This document shows, one piece after another, positions 25,952 through 39,916 of a DNA stretch of 39,916 nucleotides. How positions within the stretch are numbered: the first letter of the stretch is position 1; each line of letters starts with the position of its first letter. Source of the DNA: a virus; IMG/VR virus record IMGVR_UViG_3300036804_000279, positions 1 to 39,916 of that record. The stretch is one strand, 5' to 3'. The position numbers and the translations under genes are program-made. The notes beneath the pieces are model-generated. The model saw nothing but the letters and a program-made list of their open reading frames with translations. It was not told the DNA's origin and did no database searches.

Positions 25952-26715
25952 TCGCCCCGCTCCACCCTCGACGCTGCTTCCCTTTCCTCTTGCGCTATTC
26001 GCCGGTCCTTGCCCATCACCTGGGCTGTCAGCGCGTCCAGGTCCACCGGGCCCGCGTCCGCCGGCGAGTTGCCGCTCTGAAATGGAAATACATACGGCTT
26101 TGGCGTCGCTTCCGCCGGCGGCGGCGCCGGCATCGGCAACACCGTCGCTCCCTGCTGAGCTTCCGCTTGCGCGGGAGCTGGACTTGGCGCCGGCCGGTTG
26201 TGCAGATCCAGCAGTTCTTGCGCCGGGTAGCCTGCCGGCAGGGGTACGTACTGTTCGGGAGTTGGAGTTTGGCCTGCTTGCCATAGGGGAGCCTCTGACG
26301 ATCGGATGATGCCGCTTTCTGACGAAACCACCGTGACTTCGAGCATTTTGCCGTCCAGGGTCCGCGCGAACAGTATGTTGTAGTCTGTATCGTTCAGATC
26401 CATGTCCAGCTTGGAAAATTTAGCCGTGCCGCCGCAGCGGAACAGCAGCGCCAGCAAAAAAGCGTACTGCAGGCGGCCGGGATTGTTGACGAATGCGGGA
26501 TCCAGTTCGATCGGCTCCTGGCTCTCCGGCGTCTTGCGCAGCGTCTTGTAGGGACCTCTCGCTTTGCGGCGCAGACGAAACTCCGGCACCGCCGGCGTCA
26601 TCGTGGGATTGCGGTAGGTGCTGCCGGCGGCGTTCTTTCCGCCGTCAATCCCCTGCCCGGTCCGTTCCGCCACCGGAATACCTTTGTCAGCCCGCGGCTT
26701 ATCTGATTTGGACAT
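25948..26715 (-). CDS. Hypothetical head-module protein (255 aa)
   Basis: Start ATG 26715, 17 nt inside the terminase end. The N-terminus is Lys/Arg-rich, then a compact core (FVNNPGRLQYAFLLALLFRC, KFSKLDMDLNDTDYNILFAR, TLDGKMLEVTVVSSESG), a Pro/Ala-rich linker (about 175-215) and a charged C-terminal helix (TAQVMGKDRRIAQEEREAAS). It lies between terminase and portal. Its end overlaps the odd-start protein above, and the two may be made as one shifted product. Family not recognised. Confidence 0.6.
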   Translation of the reverse strand: MSKSDKPRADKGIPVAERTGQGIDGGKNAAGSTYRNPTMTPAVPEFRLRRKARGPYKTLRKTPESQEPIELDPAFVNNPGRLQYAFLLALLFRCGGTAKFSKLDMDLNDTDYNILFARTLDGKMLEVTVVSSESGIIRSSEAPLWQAGQTPTPEQYVPLPAGYPAQELLDLHNRPAPSPAPAQAEAQQGATVLPMPAPPPAEATPKPYVFPFQSGNSPADAGPVDLDALTAQVMGKDRRIAQEEREAASRVERGE

Positions 26716-28444
26716 AGTCCTTCTCCCATCGTTTTAGCTTGTCCAGATGCGCCTGCAAGTTCATCGTAAGAATCCCCGAGCTCGTATCGAACGGAGATTT
26801 TTGGTGCGCGATTTTGCTCAGAGCATCCTCATACAAGCCATCATCGTAGCTGCTGGCATAGCTTTCGCATTTAAGTGGGTGCCACTGGTCTTTGGCGATC
26901 CAACCTAGTAACCCCGCAAAAAGTATTTCGTCGAAGCCTGCGACCGCTTCAAAGCGGAAATCTCCCTCCCATTGCGCCGAGCTCATCTGCTCTGTAAACG
27001 CAGCGTCCAGGGGAATAGCTTCCCTCCTCCGCAGCGCGGTCAGAAAGGCGTTCAGCATCATCCGCCGGGTATAGTCCTGGATGGTGAAGCCCAGGCTGTT
27101 GCTGGATTTGGCGGCATTGACCTGGTCGTTACGCCCCTTCCAGCGGTACTGGTTGGGGTACCGCCAGCGGTCGCGTAACTCTTGGAAGATCCGTGAACCG
27201 AAGCCGCCGCCGCCGTCCTCGCAGGCCACCTTAGCCATGTTGAAGTAGGCCGCCAGGGCATAGACCGAGGCGCTGGCAGTCTCCTGGCTCAAGCACATAT
27301 GCGCCCGCGCGGCCAGGGCGCCCGTCTCGCCGTTCCACACCACCATCGCCAGGGTGTCATCCCAATTCGTCGAATCGGTGTCCTGGCGGTCGCCGTGGCC
27401 GATCATGACGCCGGCGAAGTAGTGAGCTTTCTTGTCCGGCCGCTCGAACAAGATAAACCGCCCGTTGCGGTGATCTTGTGCGCGGACCCGCCGCTCGGCC
27501 GAGTCGCCGATCTCGAGCTCCACCTGGCGGCAGGCTACATCGTCCGCGCATTTTCTCGACCAGGACAGATCGTCGAAGCTGAACACCGGATCTCCGGAGA
27601 CCTCGAAGGCCTCTTCCGGATTGCCCGGGTACTCTTTGCGCCACTTGTCCAGGTTGCCGCCCAGCCTCGAGTGCAGCACGTAGCGGAAAAAAGCAATCCG
27701 CTCTTTGGGCAGCTTCAGCTCGCGCATCAGGAACTTTTCATAGTCGTTCCGCGGCGCATCCTTCGCGCCCGCCGGATCGCGCACGTAGTCCGGATCGTCG
27801 TGCCAGGGCAGAAACTGGGCCAGATACTCCGTATCTCCGCGCTCCGATGCGTCCCATAGCTGGTAGTACGCCTGGCCGGGTCCTTCCTTGCCGTTGGGAG
27901 TGGTCTCCACGATGCCCATGTTCTCCGGATCGTCGGAAAGGGTAGACGAGACCGCCGTAAAAACCTCCGGGTTCTGGTAATAGGCTGCCTCCGACATGTG
28001 CAGGAAGGTGAAACCCAGGCCGCGCGATCCCACCACGTTGTTCGCCGTCTGCCAGGAAATTTTCGATTGGGTCTTGAAGAAGTTGATTTCCTGCTGGGTG
28101 TACTTCCAGGATGTCTTCTTCAGCGGCAACTGTTTCGCCAGCAAGTGAGACTCTTCATAGAGAGCTCGCGCGGTGATCTTCTGCTGGGCCAGGATCAGCC
28201 CTTCGGAGTAGTCTTTTTCGAGTAGGTGCGCCTGGGCCAGCATCCGCGCCCAGGTGGAGACACCCAGCCGCCGTCCTTTGAGGAAAATAACGAACAGCCG
28301 GCGCCGCTTCGCGACATGCTGCTTGCACGCCTCCATGATTTTTTGCTGCGAGGGATTCAGGCGGAAAGGAATCGGCCGGTTCGTTTGTCGGTTACGAACC
28401 GTGAACGACGCGAAAAACTTTTCCGCCTGGGCCAGGTTGATCAT
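26699..28444 (-). CDS. Terminase large subunit (581 aa)
   Basis: I chose ATG 28444 because it overlaps the previous stop (ATGA) and because the sequence turns protein-like there (MINLAQAEKFFASFTVRNRQ). The longer frame upstream is a shadow. Walker-A-like KGRRLGVST (residues 56-64); Walker B region FTFLHMSEAAY (145-155, Glu152); coupling motif IVETTPNG (178-185). The C-terminal nuclease-type domain has FAGVMIGHGDRQDTD and ACEDGGGGFG acidic groups and ends with a GFDEILFAGLLGW segment. Motor for DNA packaging at the portal. The small subunit is not recognised with confidence among the nearby Cys-rich proteins. Confidence 0.85.
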   Translation of the reverse strand: MINLAQAEKFFASFTVRNRQTNRPIPFRLNPSQQKIMEACKQHVAKRRRLFVIFLKGRRLGVSTWARMLAQAHLLEKDYSEGLILAQQKITARALYEESHLLAKQLPLKKTSWKYTQQEINFFKTQSKISWQTANNVVGSRGLGFTFLHMSEAAYYQNPEVFTAVSSTLSDDPENMGIVETTPNGKEGPGQAYYQLWDASERGDTEYLAQFLPWHDDPDYVRDPAGAKDAPRNDYEKFLMRELKLPKERIAFFRYVLHSRLGGNLDKWRKEYPGNPEEAFEVSGDPVFSFDDLSWSRKCADDVACRQVELEIGDSAERRVRAQDHRNGRFILFERPDKKAHYFAGVMIGHGDRQDTDSTNWDDTLAMVVWNGETGALAARAHMCLSQETASASVYALAAYFNMAKVACEDGGGGFGSRIFQELRDRWRYPNQYRWKGRNDQVNAAKSSNSLGFTIQDYTRRMMLNAFLTALRRREAIPLDAAFTEQMSSAQWEGDFRFEAVAGFDEILFAGLLGWIAKDQWHPLKCESYASSYDDGLYEDALSKIAHQKSPFDTSSGILTMNLQAHLDKLKRWEKDYVQIR

Positions 28445-28686
28445 TTCGCTGCCTGTACACCGCTGTACGCAACAAATCCGGTAGTATTGCAAGCCCCGCA
28501 GGCGTCGCCTTTGAGCAGCCCGGCGCCGTCGCACTTCTGGCAGGTAATCACCTTGCCGCTGCCTCGGCAGATCATGCACGTAACCAGGCACCGCATCACC
28601 TTCTTAGGTTTGTCGGTCCCGCGATACTCGTTGTACAGCCGCGCATGTTTGCAGAAGCGCACTTGCCGGACAGTGGCGGTTTCCAT
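28441..28686 (-). CDS. DnaJ-type zinc-finger small protein (81 aa)
   Basis: ATG 28686 with GGGAG about 10 nt upstream. Contains CMICRGSGKVITCQKCDGAGLLKG and CGACNTTG: three CxxC motifs, two in the CxxCxGxG style of DnaJ zinc centres, preceded by a basic N-terminus. Overlaps the terminase start (ATGA), so the two are co-translated. A small DnaJ-like zinc protein next to terminase could assist assembly or packaging; this role is inference. Confidence 0.7.
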   Translation of the reverse strand: METATVRQVRFCKHARLYNEYRGTDKPKKVMRCLVTCMICRGSGKVITCQKCDGAGLLKGDACGACNTTGFVAYSGVQAAK

Positions 28687-31270: not shown

Positions 31271-31632
31271 ACAAGCGTTCGAGCAAATTCACGCACCCAA
31301 ATCTCCGTGCGCGGATTGTTCCAGTCCCGGTCCAGGTGCATGATCCAGTTCTTCACCGCGGCGTCGGACCGGATCACGCCGGCGTCCTTCAAGCCGTCGC
31401 CGATACATTTCCAAAGATTATCGCCATCGCCCTTGCCACCCTTGGCAAAATAAACTCTCGCCTCGACTTCATAGAATTCGGCCTGCACCACCGTGCCCTG
31501 GGCGAAGACCGCCACCGCCCACTTAAAGGCTGTGGCCTGCTTGGAGACCGTTGTCTTTCCCCAAGTGTGGCGCAGCTTGTAATGGTTCACGCTGGGCGGT
31601 ATCAGCGGAATCACCAGATGGAGCTCTTTCAC
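31258..31632 (-). CDS. rusA: RusA-type Holliday junction resolvase (124 aa)
   Basis: GTG start 31632 overlaps the ATPase stop (GTGA); the upstream continuation is a shadow. N-terminal PPSVNHY is typical of RusA. The catalytic set is visible: GDGDNLWK gives Asp69, Asp71 and Lys75, and RSDAAV gives Asp90, matching the spacing of the classic D70, D72, K76, D91 set. Cleaves Holliday junctions or branched DNA as a dimer, here likely to tidy replication or packaging intermediates. Its C-terminus and stop are formed by repeat copy G, so the final residues may be altered. Confidence 0.85.
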   Translation of the reverse strand: MKELHLVIPLIPPSVNHYKLRHTWGKTTVSKQATAFKWAVAVFAQGTVVQAEFYEVEARVYFAKGGKGDGDNLWKCIGDGLKDAGVIRSDAAVKNWIMHLDRDWNNPRTEIWVREFARTLVPGK

Positions 31633-33338
31633 CGCCGCTCCAGGTAGATCCAAGGATCGATCCGCACCGTGCTGTTCTGGCCGACTTCGAGAAAGCCAAG
31701 CTTGCGCAGCCGGGAGATATGCCTGCGATAGGCCGAGGATGTAACACTTTGTTCCGTTCTCTCCGCCAGGCTCTCGCGGTCCAGCCAATCATCCAACTCG
31801 ATCAGCACCTGGAGAATACGGAACGATGCCGGCTCAAAGAGCTTCCGCAAATTGTTCACCAGCAGCTCCTTGGTCAGGTTAGTTTCCTGAATGGTCAGTT
31901 CCATTCCCGCCAGCGTCAAGCTGACATTGCCCCGCGAGGGAAAGCCAATCCAGCCGGCCACATTCATTTTGCTGATGTGCATGCGATAACCCGAGCTGGT
32001 AGGGCTTAAGCCGGTGCCGATCGCCAGCCAATTGCGTGGGATCTCCGTCATGCCCCGGCTGAGCGCTCCTTTCAAGACTCCGATCACGCGAATCCAGTTC
32101 TTATCGAAATCCTCCGGCACGTTAGGGTGGAAAACAATGGGTAATGACGGCGTCAGGACGCCCTCGTTTCTCAAGGTGTCTACAACCGGGTGGAAAACCT
32201 CCTCTGGCTTCAGATAACGGACTTGGTTATCTGGCAGCTCGGCGAGTTTCCGGACCTGGTTGAAAAAATTGTTCAAATTGGCGCTATAGCTGCCCGCTTG
32301 CTCCTGAAAATTCGACACCACCTCTTCCATCTGCGCAATCTTTAAGGGATTCACGGTTGTCGCCCGCATCTCCTCGAGCTGCCGGGTCAGCGTCTGCACT
32401 CTCGCCCGTAACTGCTCTTCCGTGTTCAGCTTCTCCTTGGCCTCGCTCTCGATTGCCGACAGTTGCGGCATGAAAGCTTGGATCTCTTCCGGCCTGGCCG
32501 GCGACGCATCCTGGATGTCTCCCGGGCGGATGTGCGTGGTCTGGGCTTCAACCGGAGAAATCAGCACCCGGTCCGGGCTGATGGCGATTCCCTGCCCATA
32601 GAAAAAGTGATCGTGCAAGTTCTTGATTTCCCTGAAGAACTGGTCTTTGTCCTGCTTGTTGGTGACCCCCAGAATCTTGGCAGCGCGATCGCGATCCGCC
32701 TGCAGCGTGGTTCGGCCGATCAGATAATTTTGTGTTTCCGAGGCACACGAATTCGATAGCCGGCTGAGGCGCTGTGTGGCCAGGCAGACGAAGAATCCCC
32801 GCTTGCGGCCGCGCGCACACAGATTCTTGACTGACTGCAACGCCAGGGATGTCGCCTCGCCCTTCTCTGGCGCCCACAGGTGCGCTTCGTCCATCAGCAT
32901 GGCAAAGGGACTCCACAGCTCCCGCGGAGCGCTCATAAGCGAATCTAGGAAGATTTGCATCCATTGGTGCTGTTCGGCTACCTCGAGGCCCGACAGGTCG
33001 AAGATGGCGGACTTGCGCCACTCCAGAATCTTCTGCGCCAGCAGCCCCGCCGTGCTGACGCTCATCGGCGCATCGCCGTTTTCGCCGAACAGCAGGAAGC
33101 TGAATTTCTCCCGCAGCGTGTAGTACTCTCCTTCAGGATCGAAGATCAATACCGGCATCATGGGAAAGAGCATCTCCGCGAACACTCGCAGCCGGTAGCT
33201 CTTGCCCGATCCGGAGACGCCGGTCATGAGTAAATGGCTCCGCCGCAAGACATCCGCATCGGCAAAAAAATCCCGGTTCTGGGTTTTGCCCAGGAGAATC
33301 TGCAACGCGCTGCCGCCCTTGGCGCGGGGTGCGATCAT
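31629..33338 (-). CDS. HerA/DUF87-like ATPase with two winged-helix repeats (569 aa)
   Basis: I chose ATG 33338 because it overlaps the 80-aa gene's stop (ATGA); a longer frame upstream is a shadow. Walker A GVSGSGKS (40-47), FDPEGEY (66-72), Walker B FAMLMDEAHL (145-154, Asp150/Glu151), sensor and finger region RGRKRGFFVCLATQRLS (176-192): HerA/FtsK-like superfamily. Residues about 290-365 look coiled-coil. The C-terminal part has two related winged-helix segments: LSPTSSGYRMHISKMNVAGWI (444-464) and SVTSSAYRRHISRLRKLGFL (531-550). Such ATPases translocate DNA as hexamers. The partner nuclease NurA is absent; RusA is next to it. A role in segregation or recombination is inference. Confidence 0.8.
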   Translation of the reverse strand: MIAPRAKGGSALQILLGKTQNRDFFADADVLRRSHLLMTGVSGSGKSYRLRVFAEMLFPMMPVLIFDPEGEYYTLREKFSFLLFGENGDAPMSVSTAGLLAQKILEWRKSAIFDLSGLEVAEQHQWMQIFLDSLMSAPRELWSPFAMLMDEAHLWAPEKGEATSLALQSVKNLCARGRKRGFFVCLATQRLSRLSNSCASETQNYLIGRTTLQADRDRAAKILGVTNKQDKDQFFREIKNLHDHFFYGQGIAISPDRVLISPVEAQTTHIRPGDIQDASPARPEEIQAFMPQLSAIESEAKEKLNTEEQLRARVQTLTRQLEEMRATTVNPLKIAQMEEVVSNFQEQAGSYSANLNNFFNQVRKLAELPDNQVRYLKPEEVFHPVVDTLRNEGVLTPSLPIVFHPNVPEDFDKNWIRVIGVLKGALSRGMTEIPRNWLAIGTGLSPTSSGYRMHISKMNVAGWIGFPSRGNVSLTLAGMELTIQETNLTKELLVNNLRKLFEPASFRILQVLIELDDWLDRESLAERTEQSVTSSAYRRHISRLRKLGFLEVGQNSTVRIDPWIYLERR

Positions 33339-33577
33339 TGCGGCCGCACCAGGCCGGAGGGCTGTTGTCCCGCGCGTAGATTGATCATGGCCGTTTCCAG
33401 GCACCCGGCCGACTGCATCACCAGTTGCAGATAAGGAAAGTTCGCTTTCGCGCCGCCCTCGATTGAAACAGCCAGCAAGCGGTGCAGCGAAAGAGAAATC
33501 TTCTCCAGTGCCTCCATGACCTCGTTTTCGTTCATGCCGTTGCGCAGCCGGATAAGTACTTCGTCTTGAGTGGGCAT
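33335..33577 (-). CDS. Small helical protein before the ATPase (80 aa)
   Basis: ATG 33577 with GGGAG about 12 nt upstream; first gene of the divergent minus-strand operon. Helical (TQDEVLIRLRNGMNENEVME, ALEKISLSLHRLLAVS), then a beta/loop end (KANFPYLQLVMQSAGCLETA). Family not recognised. Coupled to the ATPase by ATGA, so it may be its partner subunit. Confidence 0.6.
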   Translation of the reverse strand: MPTQDEVLIRLRNGMNENEVMEALEKISLSLHRLLAVSIEGGAKANFPYLQLVMQSAGCLETAMINLRAGQQPSGLVRPQ

Positions 33578-33681
33578 TGATTCTTTGTGCTCCCGGTGAA
33601 ATTAAAGTGATTAGGAGCCAATATACATAAAATGTTGTCCTGTGGGATACTCGAAAACAACATTTTGTGTACGGGTGATTC
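33578..33681. promoter_or_regulatory. Divergent promoter region with inverted-repeat operator
   Basis: Separates the ATPase operon (minus) from the early operon (plus). Inverted arms ACATAAAATGTTGTC (33625-33639) and AACAACATTTTGTGT (33656-33670) match at 13 of 15, with exact 10-bp cores AAAATGTTGT and ACAACATTTT. A repressor bound here could silence both directions. No clear -35/-10 pair was picked. Confidence 0.7.
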
Positions 33682-34368
33682 ATGCATTGTAAAGACTGTT
33701 CTTTCTGGGTCCGAAAAGAAGAAAGCTATGGAGAATGCACGCGCCGCGGGGAAAGCGACGCGCTGTTTCGCATTCGCCTGCTCGACGATGCAGGCACTCC
33801 CAGGGATGTCCTTGGCGCAGGTTGGATGGCCAAAGACCAGTGGAATCCAGTTATGGATGCAGTCCTGTTCACCGATGCGCGTTTTGGCTGTGTCCAATTC
33901 GCTCCCAAAGGACAGGTGAATGCGCAAGCGTATGTCGACGCCTGGAATGAGCTATGCGGCAAACTGGCCCGGGTAACCAAACTCACCGTTGACCGCCGGC
34001 GCAAGGTGCATGCCCGCGCCGGCGAAGGCCTGACCCTCGAAAACTTTCGCCAGGCGGCCGAGCTGTGCTCGCGCACCCCTTTTTTGATCGGCCTCAGCAA
34101 AGAGCCGTTCTACGCCACCTTTGACTGGTTGATCCAGAACGATACCTACTGGCCCAAGGTGTTGGAGGGAGCCTACGGGGTGCCATTTGCCAAGCCCAAG
34201 TCGAAAGAACAGCTCGCCGCGGAGAAGGCCGAGAAAGAGCAGAAGGATGCGCAACTGTACGAAGACTTTATGCGTGGCCGCTCCGAGAAACTCGCTGCCG
34301 GCACCAGGTACGGTCCCGAAGATGTGCGCGAAATCAGGAGATGGGAAACCAAACAGCTATCAAAATGA
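33682..34368 (+). CDS. Phage replication-type protein with N-terminal Cys cluster (228 aa)
   Basis: First plus-strand early gene, ATG 33682. N-terminal CKDC (Cys3, Cys6), Cys19 and Cys70 could bind zinc. The C-terminal half (LTLENFRQAAELCSRTPFLI, then STFDWLIQ-style FYATFDWLIQNDTYWPKVLEGAYG) is the FDWLI...KVLEGNY-type segment I associate with phage replisome-loader or initiator proteins. The end is a Lys/Glu helix (SKEQLAAEKAEKEQKDA). No helicase Walker motif. Its last codons and stop overlap the first iteron group (34355-34398). Confidence 0.65.
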   Translation: MHCKDCSFWVRKEESYGECTRRGESDALFRIRLLDDAGTPRDVLGAGWMAKDQWNPVMDAVLFTDARFGCVQFAPKGQVNAQAYVDAWNELCGKLARVTKLTVDRRRKVHARAGEGLTLENFRQAAELCSRTPFLIGLSKEPFYATFDWLIQNDTYWPKVLEGAYGVPFAKPKSKEQLAAEKAEKEQKDAQLYEDFMRGRSEKLAAGTRYGPEDVREIRRWETKQLSK

Positions 34369-34729: not shown

Positions 34730-35776
34730 ATGGGTGACCGCACCAAAGTTGAGTTTGCAGACGCTACCTGGAACCCGCTGCGCGGTTGCAGCGATCTCAG
34801 CCGCGGCTGCCGCAACTGCTTTGCCAAGCTCATCGCGGCGCGCATGGGTGCGCCAGGCAAGCCCTTTGAAGGCTATGCCTTTATGCAGGACGGGAAGCCT
34901 TTCTGGACCGGCAAGGTAAAGATCGTCGAAAGGGTGCTGATGGAGCCTCTGACCTGGCGCCAGGAGCGCGCTGTGTACGTCGGTTCCATGTCCGACCTCT
35001 TCCATCCTGAGTTAGCCCAGGACGAGCGCGACGCCATCCACGGCACCATGGCGTTATGTGGCCAGCACACCTTTCAAATCTTGACCAAGCGGCCGGAAGC
35101 GATGTGCGCATATTATGGCGATCCGGAGGTTTGGGCGCGCATCGAGAAATGGGCCCGCGCCATCTACCGCATGCATCACGGCCGGGAGTATCCGAGCCAG
35201 GGGCATCTCCGCGGCCCTATGCCGAATATCTGGGCTGGTACCTCGATCGAGGACCAGAGAACCGCCAACCGGCGCCTTCCCTGGCTCCTGAAGACCGTCG
35301 CCTGCAGGCGCTTCGTCGCCTATGAGCCGGCGATCGCGCCCGTCGACGCTACGCTGTACCTGAATGCCTGGAAGAGCGAGCCGGAGATTCCGAAGATCGA
35401 TTGGCTCGTCTGTGGCGGAGAATCCGGACCCTATGCCCGGCCCCTGCATCCCTACGCTGCGAGCTGGATACGCGACCAGTGCCTGGCGGCCGGCACATCC
35501 TTCTTCTTCAAGCAATGGGGGGAATGGTCTCCAGTACTGCGTCGGGGAGCTCCCTTCGAGCAATGGGGGTACTACGATCAGGACGAGAAATTTCATCCTC
35601 GCCGGCGGATATTCCTGCAAAGCGAAACGGCGCGGCAACATCCTGTCAAAATGTGGCGGATCGGCAAAGAGGCTGCCGGGCGCGAGCTCGACGGCCGCGT
35701 ATGGGACGAGATGCCGGAACCAATCCTGCACCTGAAACCAACTGGAGGACCTGTTCACCTTGAAAATCACCCCTGA
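34730..35776 (+). CDS. Phage Gp37/Gp68 family protein, DUF5131 (348 aa)
   Basis: ATG 34730. The family signature is near the N-terminus: ATWNPLRGCSDLSRGCRNCFA, with Cys20, Cys27 and Cys30 in the three-Cys pattern CX6CX2C, followed by KPFWTGKVKIVERVLMEPLTW, VGSMSDLFHPEL, TKRPEAM, WAGTSIEDQ and WLVCGGESGPYARPLH. The family is radical-SAM-like in fold and typical of phages; the reaction is not settled to my knowledge. In some genomes it pairs with the partner TcmP; none is visible here. The last 17 nt overlap the next gene. Confidence 0.85.
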   Translation: MGDRTKVEFADATWNPLRGCSDLSRGCRNCFAKLIAARMGAPGKPFEGYAFMQDGKPFWTGKVKIVERVLMEPLTWRQERAVYVGSMSDLFHPELAQDERDAIHGTMALCGQHTFQILTKRPEAMCAYYGDPEVWARIEKWARAIYRMHHGREYPSQGHLRGPMPNIWAGTSIEDQRTANRRLPWLLKTVACRRFVAYEPAIAPVDATLYLNAWKSEPEIPKIDWLVCGGESGPYARPLHPYAASWIRDQCLAAGTSFFFKQWGEWSPVLRRGAPFEQWGYYDQDEKFHPRRRIFLQSETARQHPVKMWRIGKEAAGRELDGRVWDEMPEPILHLKPTGGPVHLENHP

Positions 35777-36045: not shown

Positions 36046-36291
36046 ACAATAATATGGTTTGCGGTCGTCGCTCTCGTGGTGATTGTGGTGATTGACTACG
36101 TGGCGCGGCCCAAGCATAGGTTTGAACACAATACAGTTCACAATGCGACCGGGATGGGGATTTATATCCAGTCAAGCTCGGATGTGGACAAGCCTTGCAC
36201 TCCGGGAGATACGTTTGTGGACGAGAAAGGGCAGCTATGGTCCTGCGTGGCTCCTCCGCCAAATAAGTGGGGGAAGCAGGCTACGAAATGA
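36022..36291 (+). CDS. Single-pass membrane protein upstream of ParA (89 aa)
   Basis: Start ATG 36022 lies inside the iteron array. Residues 1-27 form a transmembrane helix (MIPSVISKTIIWFAVVALVV IVVID), followed by a soluble domain (HRFEHNTVHNATGMGIYIQS, SDVDKPCTPGDTFVDEKGQL). Its stop overlaps the ParA start (ATGA). Might localise plasmid or phage DNA, or be unrelated; function unknown. Confidence 0.55.
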   Translation: MIPSVISKTIIWFAVVALVVIVVIDYVARPKHRFEHNTVHNATGMGIYIQSSSDVDKPCTPGDTFVDEKGQLWSCVAPPPNKWGKQATK

Positions 36292-36947
36292 TCATTGTGG
36301 TGGGAGGGATCAAGGGCGGCTCTGGCAAGACCACCGTCGCCACGAACCTTGCCATTCTGCGCGCCGGCGCCGGCCGGGATGTCTTGCTGGTGGATGCTGA
36401 CGATCAGGAGACGGCCAGCGACTTTACCCAGCTCCGAAGTGAAAAGCTGGGCAGCGCCGGGTATACCTCGATCAAGCTGAATGGCCTGGCGGTGCGCACC
36501 CAGCTCCTGCGTATGCGGCAGAAGTACCAGGACATCCTCATTGACACCGGAGGCCGGGATACAGCCAGCCAGCGGGCAGCGCTATCCCTCGCGCATGTTC
36601 TCCTGGTGCCCTTCGTGCCTCGCTCCTTCGATGTGTGGACCATTGGCGCGGTCTCCGGGCTGGTAGCGGAGATACAGGCTGTAAACCCGTCCCTGCATGC
36701 CTATAGCTTTCTCAACCGCGCCGATCCGCGCGGCCAGGACAACCAGGATGCCGGCGAAGTGCTGCGCGAAGTGGCGGAGCTGAAGCTGATGAAAGATGTC
36801 TCCATCGGAACGCGCAAGGCCTTCGGCAATGCCGCCGCCGCCGGCCTGGCGGTGAACGAGCTCCGGCCCGCGGATCCCAAAGCGGTGGAGGAGATGATGC
36901 TCCTCTACCGATATACATTTGATATCAAAGTGAAAGGCAGGAGCTGA
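36288..36947 (+). CDS. parA: ParA-family partition ATPase (219 aa)
   Basis: ATG 36288 overlaps the upstream stop (ATGA). Deviant Walker A KGGSGKTT (residues 9-16, with Lys at the signature position), VLLVDADDQETAS (32-44), and YQDILIDTGGRD (about 77-88) are the ParA/MinD hallmarks. Short, without an N-terminal HTH, so it is like the type Ib ParA or ParF class. It would segregate low-copy DNA using a nucleoid gradient with a small DNA-binding partner, here the RHH gene immediately after. A single 11-bp repeat (36920-36930) sits at its 3' end. Confidence 0.85.
   Translation: MIIVVGGIKGGSGKTTVATNLAILRAGAGRDVLLVDADDQETASDFTQLRSEKLGSAGYTSIKLNGLAVRTQLLRMRQKYQDILIDTGGRDTASQRAALSLAHVLLVPFVPRSFDVWTIGAVSGLVAEIQAVNPSLHAYSFLNRADPRGQDNQDAGEVLREVAELKLMKDVSIGTRKAFGNAAAAGLAVNELRPADPKAVEEMMLLYRYTFDIKVKGRS
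36920..36930. repeat. Single 11-bp iteron unit TGATATCAAAG inside parA
   Basis: One perfect consensus unit in the coding end of parA, followed by a diverged neighbour (TGAAAGGCAGG). Could be a remnant or a low-affinity site. Confidence 0.6.
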
Positions 36948-37259
36948 GTGGCTATTACCAAAAAACCGGTGAAAAGCAAATCCAGAATGGCGCCGCCGGC
37001 GGCGGCCGCCAGGGTGTCCAATGGAAGAGATGTGGAGGCGGTGATTGCCAAGGGTGGCAGTATGCCCATGCCGCCGCCGCAGAGGGACTGGGATGAGCAC
37101 GATCAGGAATTCGTACCGTTTGTGTGTCGCGCCCCCCGTCATCTGCTGCGCCAGGTGGATGAGGCTGCCAAGAGCCGTCAAATCCGCATCTCCCGCCAAA
37201 CCTGGATGCTCGAAGCCATCTACGAAAAAGTCGACCGGGAGAAAAGCATAAATGGCTGA
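36948..37259 (+). CDS. Ribbon-helix-helix partition partner (103 aa)
   Basis: GTG 36948 follows the ParA stop directly (TGAGTG). The Ala/Pro/Lys-rich unfolded N-terminal half resembles the flexible ParA-contacting tails of ParG-like proteins. The C-terminal half (FVCRAPRHLLRQVDEAAKSR, RISRQTWMLEAIYEKVDRE) has the strand plus two helices of a ribbon-helix-helix fold. I infer it is the centromere-binding protein and binder of the 11-bp units. The fold is by pattern; no alignment was run. Confidence 0.65.
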   Translation: MAITKKPVKSKSRMAPPAAAARVSNGRDVEAVIAKGGSMPMPPPQRDWDEHDQEFVPFVCRAPRHLLRQVDEAAKSRQIRISRQTWMLEAIYEKVDREKSING

Positions 37260-38901: not shown

Positions 38902-39111
38902 GTGGTTCCCCGGCCAGGCGAAACCGTTCATGACTACGTGGCAAAGGGTAAATCCGATTCTCCTGGCGGATACCGCATCAATGAAGCGCCAGAAGCTCCT
39001 GGAGGCCGTTCTATCACTTGCCTGGGCTGTGGGCGTACCAGCTCCAATCCAAATGACGTAGAGCGTCGCTATTGCGGCTTCTGCCACAGGTTCCTAGACG
39101 ATGCCAATTGA
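38902..39111 (+). CDS. Zinc-ribbon-like small protein (69 aa)
   Basis: GTG 38902. Contains RSITCLGCGRTSSNPNDVER and RYCGFCHRFLDDAN: two CxxC pairs in the arrangement of small phage zinc ribbons. A competing plus-frame reading (38792-39061) lacks such motifs and is rejected. Overlaps the next gene by 11 nt. Confidence 0.6.
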   Translation: MVPRPGETVHDYVAKGKSDSPGGYRINEAPEAPGGRSITCLGCGRTSSNPNDVERRYCGFCHRFLDDAN

Positions 39112-39319
39112 ATACATGCTGTTGAAAGATGCGTCAGTCCCGCTGGACGCCTGCCCGAAATGCAGCGCGACGCCGTTTTATCCATTCATGCGCGGCCAGG
39201 TGCAATCTGCCTGGCGCAGATTCTTCCGCAAACCATACTGCTGTCTGATCTGCTGGAACTGCAAAGAGATAGTGGGCTACGAGAACCCTCGCGCTCACAA
39301 ATATCTCAGCGCGAAATAG
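39101..39319 (+). CDS. Cys-rich small protein (72 aa)
   Basis: ATG 39101, inside the previous gene's last codons. MPIEYMLLKDASVPLDACPK, KCSATPFYPFMRGQVQSAWR, RFFRKPYCCLICWNCKEIVG. CPKC and CCLICWNC form a likely zinc site. Converges with the DUF3307 gene, sharing 25 nt of 3' ends. Confidence 0.6.
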   Translation: MPIEYMLLKDASVPLDACPKCSATPFYPFMRGQVQSAWRRFFRKPYCCLICWNCKEIVGYENPRAHKYLSAK

Positions 39320-39705
39320 TTGATGGTCAAATGCAAGATGTTATCGACGATGATTAAAAGCCAGACGGCAAGCCATGCCGGAGGCCCTTTGCGGTCTTCA
39401 GAAACAAATCCTGTACCCTGACAAGCCTTCCAGCTCATGCGTTGCTCCCAGCACGACGGCGACCAAAGCGGTGGCTCCCGGCCCTGATCCACGCTCTGCT
39501 GTATTCCCTGACCTTCCTGCTCCTGCGGCCTTCCTGGGCGGCGTGGTCTGTGATCTTCGCCACGCACATGCTTATTGACCGATTCCGGGTCGCCCGGTAC
39601 CTCGTCTGGCTCAAAAATTGGCTTGCTCCTTTTAGTTTTGTTTTCGGCCATCCAGTGCGACTGCAAGATGTAATCGCCCCACAAATGACAAAGTAGTTGA
39701 TTCAT
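39295..39705 (-). CDS. DUF3307 membrane protein with its middle inverted
   Basis: I take ATG 39705 (MNQLLCHLWGDYILQSHWMA), the conserved DUF3307 beginning; GGAGGG sits just upstream and longer TTG/GTG starts are possible. The C-terminal part (KGPPAWLAVWLLIIVDNILH LTINYFALRYL) is also family-like. The middle of the present minus frame (KPIFEPDEVPGDPESVNKHV and on) is not. The expected middle (LIHALLYSLTFLLLRPSWAA, HMLIDRFRVARYLVWLKNW) is encoded on the opposite strand at 39469-39621. Turning that segment around restores a 136-aa protein in frame. As it stands the gene is open but its helices are disrupted, so it is probably non-functional. Confidence 0.8.
   Translation of the reverse strand: MNQLLCHLWGDYILQSHWMAENKTKRSKPIFEPDEVPGDPESVNKHVRGEDHRPRRPGRPQEQEGQGIQQSVDQGREPPLWSPSCWEQRMSWKACQGTGFVSEDRKGPPAWLAVWLLIIVDNILHLTINYFALRYL
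39469..39621 (+). other. Precise 153-bp inverted segment of the DUF3307 gene (51 codons)
   Basis: The plus strand reads RWLPALIHALLYSLTFLLLR, PSWAAWSVIFATHMLIDRFR and VARYLVWLKNW. On both sides the minus-strand codon boundaries coincide exactly with the segment edges. Edges share only AAGC/GCTT (4 bp inverted). Confidence 0.85.
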
Positions 39706-39827
39706 ATCCCTCCAGACTTTCACGAACAATCCAGAACAAAAGTGAACACAAGTGAACTAGCGATAGGTAACCGTGAAAGAGATAATAAAGACAAATGTAA
39801 CAGTGACGATTGCAAAATCCAGGAAAA

Positions 39828-39860
39828 TGATATCACGATGATATAAAAATGATATAACCC
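39828..39860. repeat. Three 11-bp iteron units at the right end
   Basis: TGATATCACGA, TGATATAAAAA and TGATATAACCC in exact tandem; a looser CGATTGCAAAA lies upstream at 39807. The group precedes a promoter-like pair at 39882-39911. A 10-bp period AAGTGAAC repeat (39740-39759) lies further left. Confidence 0.75.
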
Positions 39861-39881
39861 AGCCCCGACCACGCAGCGGAG

Positions 39882-39911
39882 TTGACAACAAGAGCGGTCT
39901 CTCTCTAAAAT
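39882..39911 (+). promoter_or_regulatory. Sigma70-type promoter at the right edge
   Basis: TTGACA (39882-39887), 18-bp spacer, TAAAAT (39906-39911), reading rightwards out of the window, just after three iteron units. An iteron-regulated promoter for genes beyond the edge is likely. Confidence 0.65.
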
Positions 39912-39916
39912 ACATA

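Follow-up and report, generated by a model that had tools for sequence, protein, structure and literature searches.

A short reversed segment inside a DUF3307 gene of an uncultured phage

A gene divided between two strands

How does a phage gene come to have its two ends on one strand and its middle on the other? The question is raised by a DUF3307 gene near the right end of the window, by which we mean the whole stretch of DNA analysed, one IMG/VR virus record (39916 bases, classed as linear) from an uncultured tailed-phage-like virus. The first-pass annotation had described an exact inversion of 153 bp with codon-aligned edges at 39469–39621, and offered three readings of it: a rare spontaneous inversion, a phase-variable switch, or an assembly error. 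The locus is composed of the following features.

39295–39705, minus strand: DUF3307 / phrog_6676 accessory membrane-protein gene, broken, recognised by profile matches (ATG at 39705, in-frame TTG at 39729)
39631–39705, minus strand: N-terminal part of the gene in normal orientation (MNQLLCHLWGDYILQSHWMAENKTK), by profile match
39469–39630, plus strand: inverted segment, best estimate 162 bp (54 codons), from a breakpoint scan against a 73-relative HMM and the invariant K..H spacing
39295–39468, minus strand: C-terminal part of the gene in normal orientation (LWSPSCWEQRMSWKACQGTGF...WLAVWLLIIVDNILHLTINYFALRYL), by profile match
39442–39696, plus strand: ORF of 84 aa created over the inverted segment, with a phrog_6676 match, carrying the family middle and a hydrophobic stretch

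In a profile search, the minus-strand ORF at 39295–39729, whose frame is still open across the inverted segment, matches phrog_6676 with its terminal pieces only, the middle being left out, and matches PF11750 only over a 27-residue N-terminal stretch (20.1 bits, below the cut-off of 23 bits); as it stands, the gene gives a continuous match over most of its length to neither profile. The plus-strand ORF matches phrog_6676 profile positions 27–90 (E 9.6e-20), and the family middle that it carries retains its family match without a stop codon. Once the middle is re-inverted, the gene encodes a 136-aa protein with one continuous phrog_6676 match (profile positions 11–131), scoring 133.7 bits with edges at 39469–39621 versus 140.9 bits (E 4e-41) with the corrected edges described below, and with a continuous PF11750 match over most of its length (35.6 bits). 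The mixed-strand arrangement is confirmed in the sequence, far beyond chance. The complementary phrog_6676 matches bear out the earlier description of family-like ends on the minus strand and an intact middle on the plus strand, and the continuous match of the restored protein agrees with its claim that re-inversion gives a full protein.

Edges and length of the inverted segment

The edges were located by a breakpoint scan, in which left edges 39430–39499 were combined with right edges 39595–39664, the segment between them was re-inverted, and each product was scored first with an HMM built from 9 relatives and then with one from 73 distinct relatives (only edge pairs whose frame reads on for at least 80 residues were scored). 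With the 73-relative HMM, the best axis (left + right = 79099) reaches 191–192.4 bits, versus 183.7 bits for edges 39469–39621 (a difference of 7–9 bits) and 188.7 bits for the best of any other axis. Equivalent edges lie at 39464–39472 on the left and 39627–39635 on the right, giving a length range of 156–172 bp.

The spacing of conserved residues gives the same answer. Relatives carry the motifs K-T-K-R-W-x-P-A-x-x-H and K-N-x-L-A-P; the window has ...RPKRWLPAL...KNWLAPFSF... on the plus strand and ...ENKTKRSK... on the minus strand. The conserved K and the conserved H are 9 residues apart in all 71 scoreable relatives, and in the restored protein they are 12 apart with edges 39469–39621 and 9 apart with the corrected edges. 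The former edges produce KTKRSKRWLPALIH, with 3 surplus residues, at one join and KNWLWSP, with AP lost, at the other; the corrected edges restore KNWLAP, AP being the commonest pair after KNxL (29 of 62 scoreable relatives). Because the spacing and the HMM scores agree, the inverted length is ~162 bp (156–172) and not 153 bp, and the exact edges first proposed have to be given up. With re-inversion about a single axis the protein regains the full family length as well as the K..H spacing. KNWLAP is followed, in the best reconstruction, by a length-variable stretch that exceeds that of typical relatives by ~6 residues, and given these extra residues a small additional change at the right junction is possible.

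Homology and reading frame at the edges

About the corrected axis the edges share scattered identities only (C.AA..GG.G, 6/10). Inverted homology near the best edges does not exceed ~2–3 bp (AA/TT, GG/CC, or AAA/TTT offset by one base), as expected by chance, and no inverted repeats of at least 8 bp are found in 39380–39720. A 4-bp microhomology had been proposed to flank the segment.

39466–39469, plus strand: AAGC, partner of GCTT at 39621–39624, the proposed microhomology, at chance level

This AAGC/GCTT pair belongs to another axis and lies 3–14 bp inside the corrected right edge, away from the corrected edges. An exact match of at least 4 bp between two 16-bp stretches 160 bp apart is obtained in 875 of 2000 random placements in the contig (~44%), and the family spacing together with this chance frequency rules out the pair as a recombination site. 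The codon-aligned edges likewise lose the meaning attached to them: several edges are equivalent, and among the contig's larger minus-strand ORFs 64% of in-register 54-codon antisense segments have no stop, so that the open antisense frame is unremarkable and codon alignment is ruled out as a sign of design.

Relatives and sibling phages

The restored protein is about 45–59% identical to relatives over its full length and contains the N-terminal, middle and C-terminal motifs of the DUF3307 (PF11750) / PHROG 6676 membrane proteins, among them Streptomyces phage Rainydai gp28, Gordonia phage GAL1 Orf78 and Streptomyces phage Yaboi gp122. All parts of these relatives lie on one strand in every match, whereas the window gene has its middle on the other strand. 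The first-pass annotation had proposed looking for the restored 136-aa protein in relatives, and such relatives were found: each of the 129 matches in phage records spans 80% or more of the query at a single location, and the best 80 IMG/VR matches are near full-length and on one strand. Neither an inverted copy nor a family member with the same mixed-strand arrangement, which the annotation had named as evidence against its reading, occurs among these ~209 relatives (129 phage records and the best 80 IMG/VR loci), a tally biased toward full-length matches because the searches rank such matches first. The search with the restored protein gave no near-identical relative, only matches at ~50% identity or less; the chimeric ORF as it stands, used as query, returned normal relatives alone and no inverted form; and an exact 27-mer of the middle retrieved no near-identical contig in the other orientation from IMG/VR.

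Sibling contigs were found via the major capsid protein (87–90% identical) and the terminase (66–70%). The DUF3307 gene is absent from the sibling contigs searched, which are fragments; they therefore cannot show the ancestral state, and the gene appears to be accessory in this phage group. In the DNA comparison with the siblings all matches have the same direction, which shows that the window is not scrambled as a whole, and no further flipped segments are seen in the parts of the window alignable to sibling phages. The right half of the window has no similar DNA in phage records, and no prophage with this capsid protein was found in bacterial and archaeal genomes.

A shared, apparently palindromic end

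The inverted segment lies 280–450 bp from the contig end (right edge ~280–288 bp away), and this end has features of its own.

39879–39916, no strand: likely natural genome end, half of a palindromic/hairpin terminus ending in ...TACATA, from comparison with two sibling contigs
39830–39860 of the window, with counterparts at L111 3435–3455 and L112 2745–2775: TGATATCA-like motifs

Two siblings, G001 and G002, have in common with the window a gene at ~38959–39111, just before the right end. The window ends in ...TAAAATACATA and G001 in ...GTAAAAGTACATA, at the same homologous point, while G002 continues across a near-perfect palindrome of 84 bases with ACATATGT at its centre (L112 2788–2871); the window and G001 (L111 end) stop at the axis of this palindrome, which folds at -41.4 kcal/mol (z -16.5). 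All three contigs carry a TGTCAA motif ~30 bases inward of the TATGT end. Judged by sequence, the shared right end looks like a natural end of the genome, palindromic or hairpin, in this uncultured phage group, in keeping with the ParA-type ATPase gene at 36267–36947, as in linear phage-plasmids. No match to protelomerase (PF16684) was obtained in the window or the siblings (contigs incomplete). The shared end point of these phage contigs may matter more than the inversion.

Close to the shared right end, on its inner side, each of the three contigs also has repeated TGATATCA-like motifs (GATATCA, TATATCA), possibly binding sites. The ParA-type ATPase gene is followed by a 103-aa ORF without a Pfam match (36267–37259), a pairing that suggests a phage-plasmid lifestyle.

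Origin of the inversion

We consider a one-off, gene-breaking microinversion of ~162 bp (156–172), which flipped the middle of the DUF3307 gene by template switching, to be the probable origin of the arrangement, with appreciable room for doubt. Template switching during replication, or repair-type copying of the opposite strand, would reverse the segment without a recombinase, and the edge homology of only ~2–3 bp fits such copying rather than a recombinase. Microinversions have been proposed to arise when template switching or break-induced copying takes place at inverted repeats that are very short or imperfect (PMC8755829). The case here resembles primate microinversions in the precise reversal of a short segment; the primate ones have very short or imperfect inverted repeats at their edges (Potapova et al. 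2022, PMC8755829), to which the chance-level ~2–3 bp here may correspond. Human–chimpanzee microinversions, however, measure 17–33 bp (PMC8755829) versus ~162 bp in this phage, and this length counts against a microinversion, as does the need for two switches to give a clean reversal on both sides where flanking homology is almost absent. We infer that the event was biological, recent and inactivating. Since the middle keeps its family match and has no stop on the plus strand, it would have had little time to decay. The inversion would have removed the first strongly hydrophobic stretch and put a hydrophilic, antisense-derived sequence in its place: the hydrophobic stretch at ~residues 35–48 of the restored protein is absent from the present frame, where the C-terminal one alone remains. 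In its present form the protein very probably has no function, and the gene is in effect inactivated. If real, this is a clear case of a microinversion that breaks a protein and is seen in a wild phage before the sequence has decayed; gene callers would report the broken gene as a normal 144-aa ORF.

The inversion is known from a single assembled contig, and the assembly error among the original three readings accordingly has to be weighed. Inverted-type joins occur among phi29-amplification chimeras. Chimeric fold-back molecules could have joined the segment backwards and been followed by the assembler, helped by a segment of about read length and the nearby palindromic end, an explanation that we regard as doubtful but of some weight. 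The gene would otherwise be intact, the segment is close to an apparently palindromic terminus, and chimeras in phi29-amplified DNA typically join nearby parts with short overlaps (PMC4595205), the distance peaking at 250–300 nt and the overlap at 6 nt (Tu et al. 2015, PMC4595205). The likeness lies in very short overlaps and in neighbouring parts joined in the wrong order within a few hundred bases (PMC4595205); however, the published chimeras are junctions in reads (PMC4595205), whereas here the reversal is clean on both sides and sits in an assembled contig, and the comparison would hold only for an amplified sample. A chimeric origin would require both junctions to be artefacts that lead back to one place with nothing lost, the overlap at the junctions is only ~2–3 bp, and no other segment is flipped in the parts comparable with siblings. 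We prefer a microinversion to a chimera because two artefacts would have to match to give a reversal that is clean on both sides.

Closeness to the palindromic end could promote a microinversion or a chimera alike. A more specific proposal, which we think improbable, is that the flip is a by-product of the palindromic or hairpin end itself: copying of such an end would turn the last few hundred bases into an inverted duplication, head to head, and a switch of strands from one arm to the other could reverse a short end-adjacent stretch. Recurrent small inversions would then be expected in the end-proximal accessory genes of such phages.

A phase-variable intragenic switch (inverton), in which a recombinase flips the segment and turns the membrane protein on and off, is very improbable. 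The segment length is divisible by three, and both states leave the frame open, as in the intragenic invertons described in bacteria (Chanin et al. 2024, as cited in PMC11868660), where an inverted segment likewise lies inside a gene with an open frame; but in the present case no inverted repeats, no recombinase and no second state were found. The two main recombinase families, serine resolvases (PF00239, Resolvase) and tyrosine integrases (PF00589, Phage_integrase), had no match in the window or three sibling contigs, in a profile search whose positive controls gave matches (the contigs are incomplete, and a host could supply the recombinase). The high frequency of stop-free antisense segments, the tally of relatives and the absence of the DUF3307 gene from siblings also speak against it. 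With no repeats, recombinase gene, other flipped segment or inverted relative found, a recombinase-driven switch is unlikely, and the spontaneous inversion is the best supported of the three original readings. The observation is true with corrected edges, of an ordinary kind and no new switch.

That two unrelated genes simply overlap on opposite strands without any inversion, and resemble the family by chance or duplication, is refuted for practical purposes: open frames do run through the region on both strands, but the matches cover complementary, non-overlapping parts of one profile, re-inversion yields one continuous match, and the breakpoint scan stands against it as well.

Other genes in the window

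Two ORFs, at 26699–28591 and 31629–33683, both match terminase-labelled PHROGs. The latter also has a HerA/FtsK helicase domain match (PF01935) and may encode an ATPase for translocation instead of a terminase. At 34730–35776 lies a DUF5131 gene of full length (PF07505, E 6e-74).
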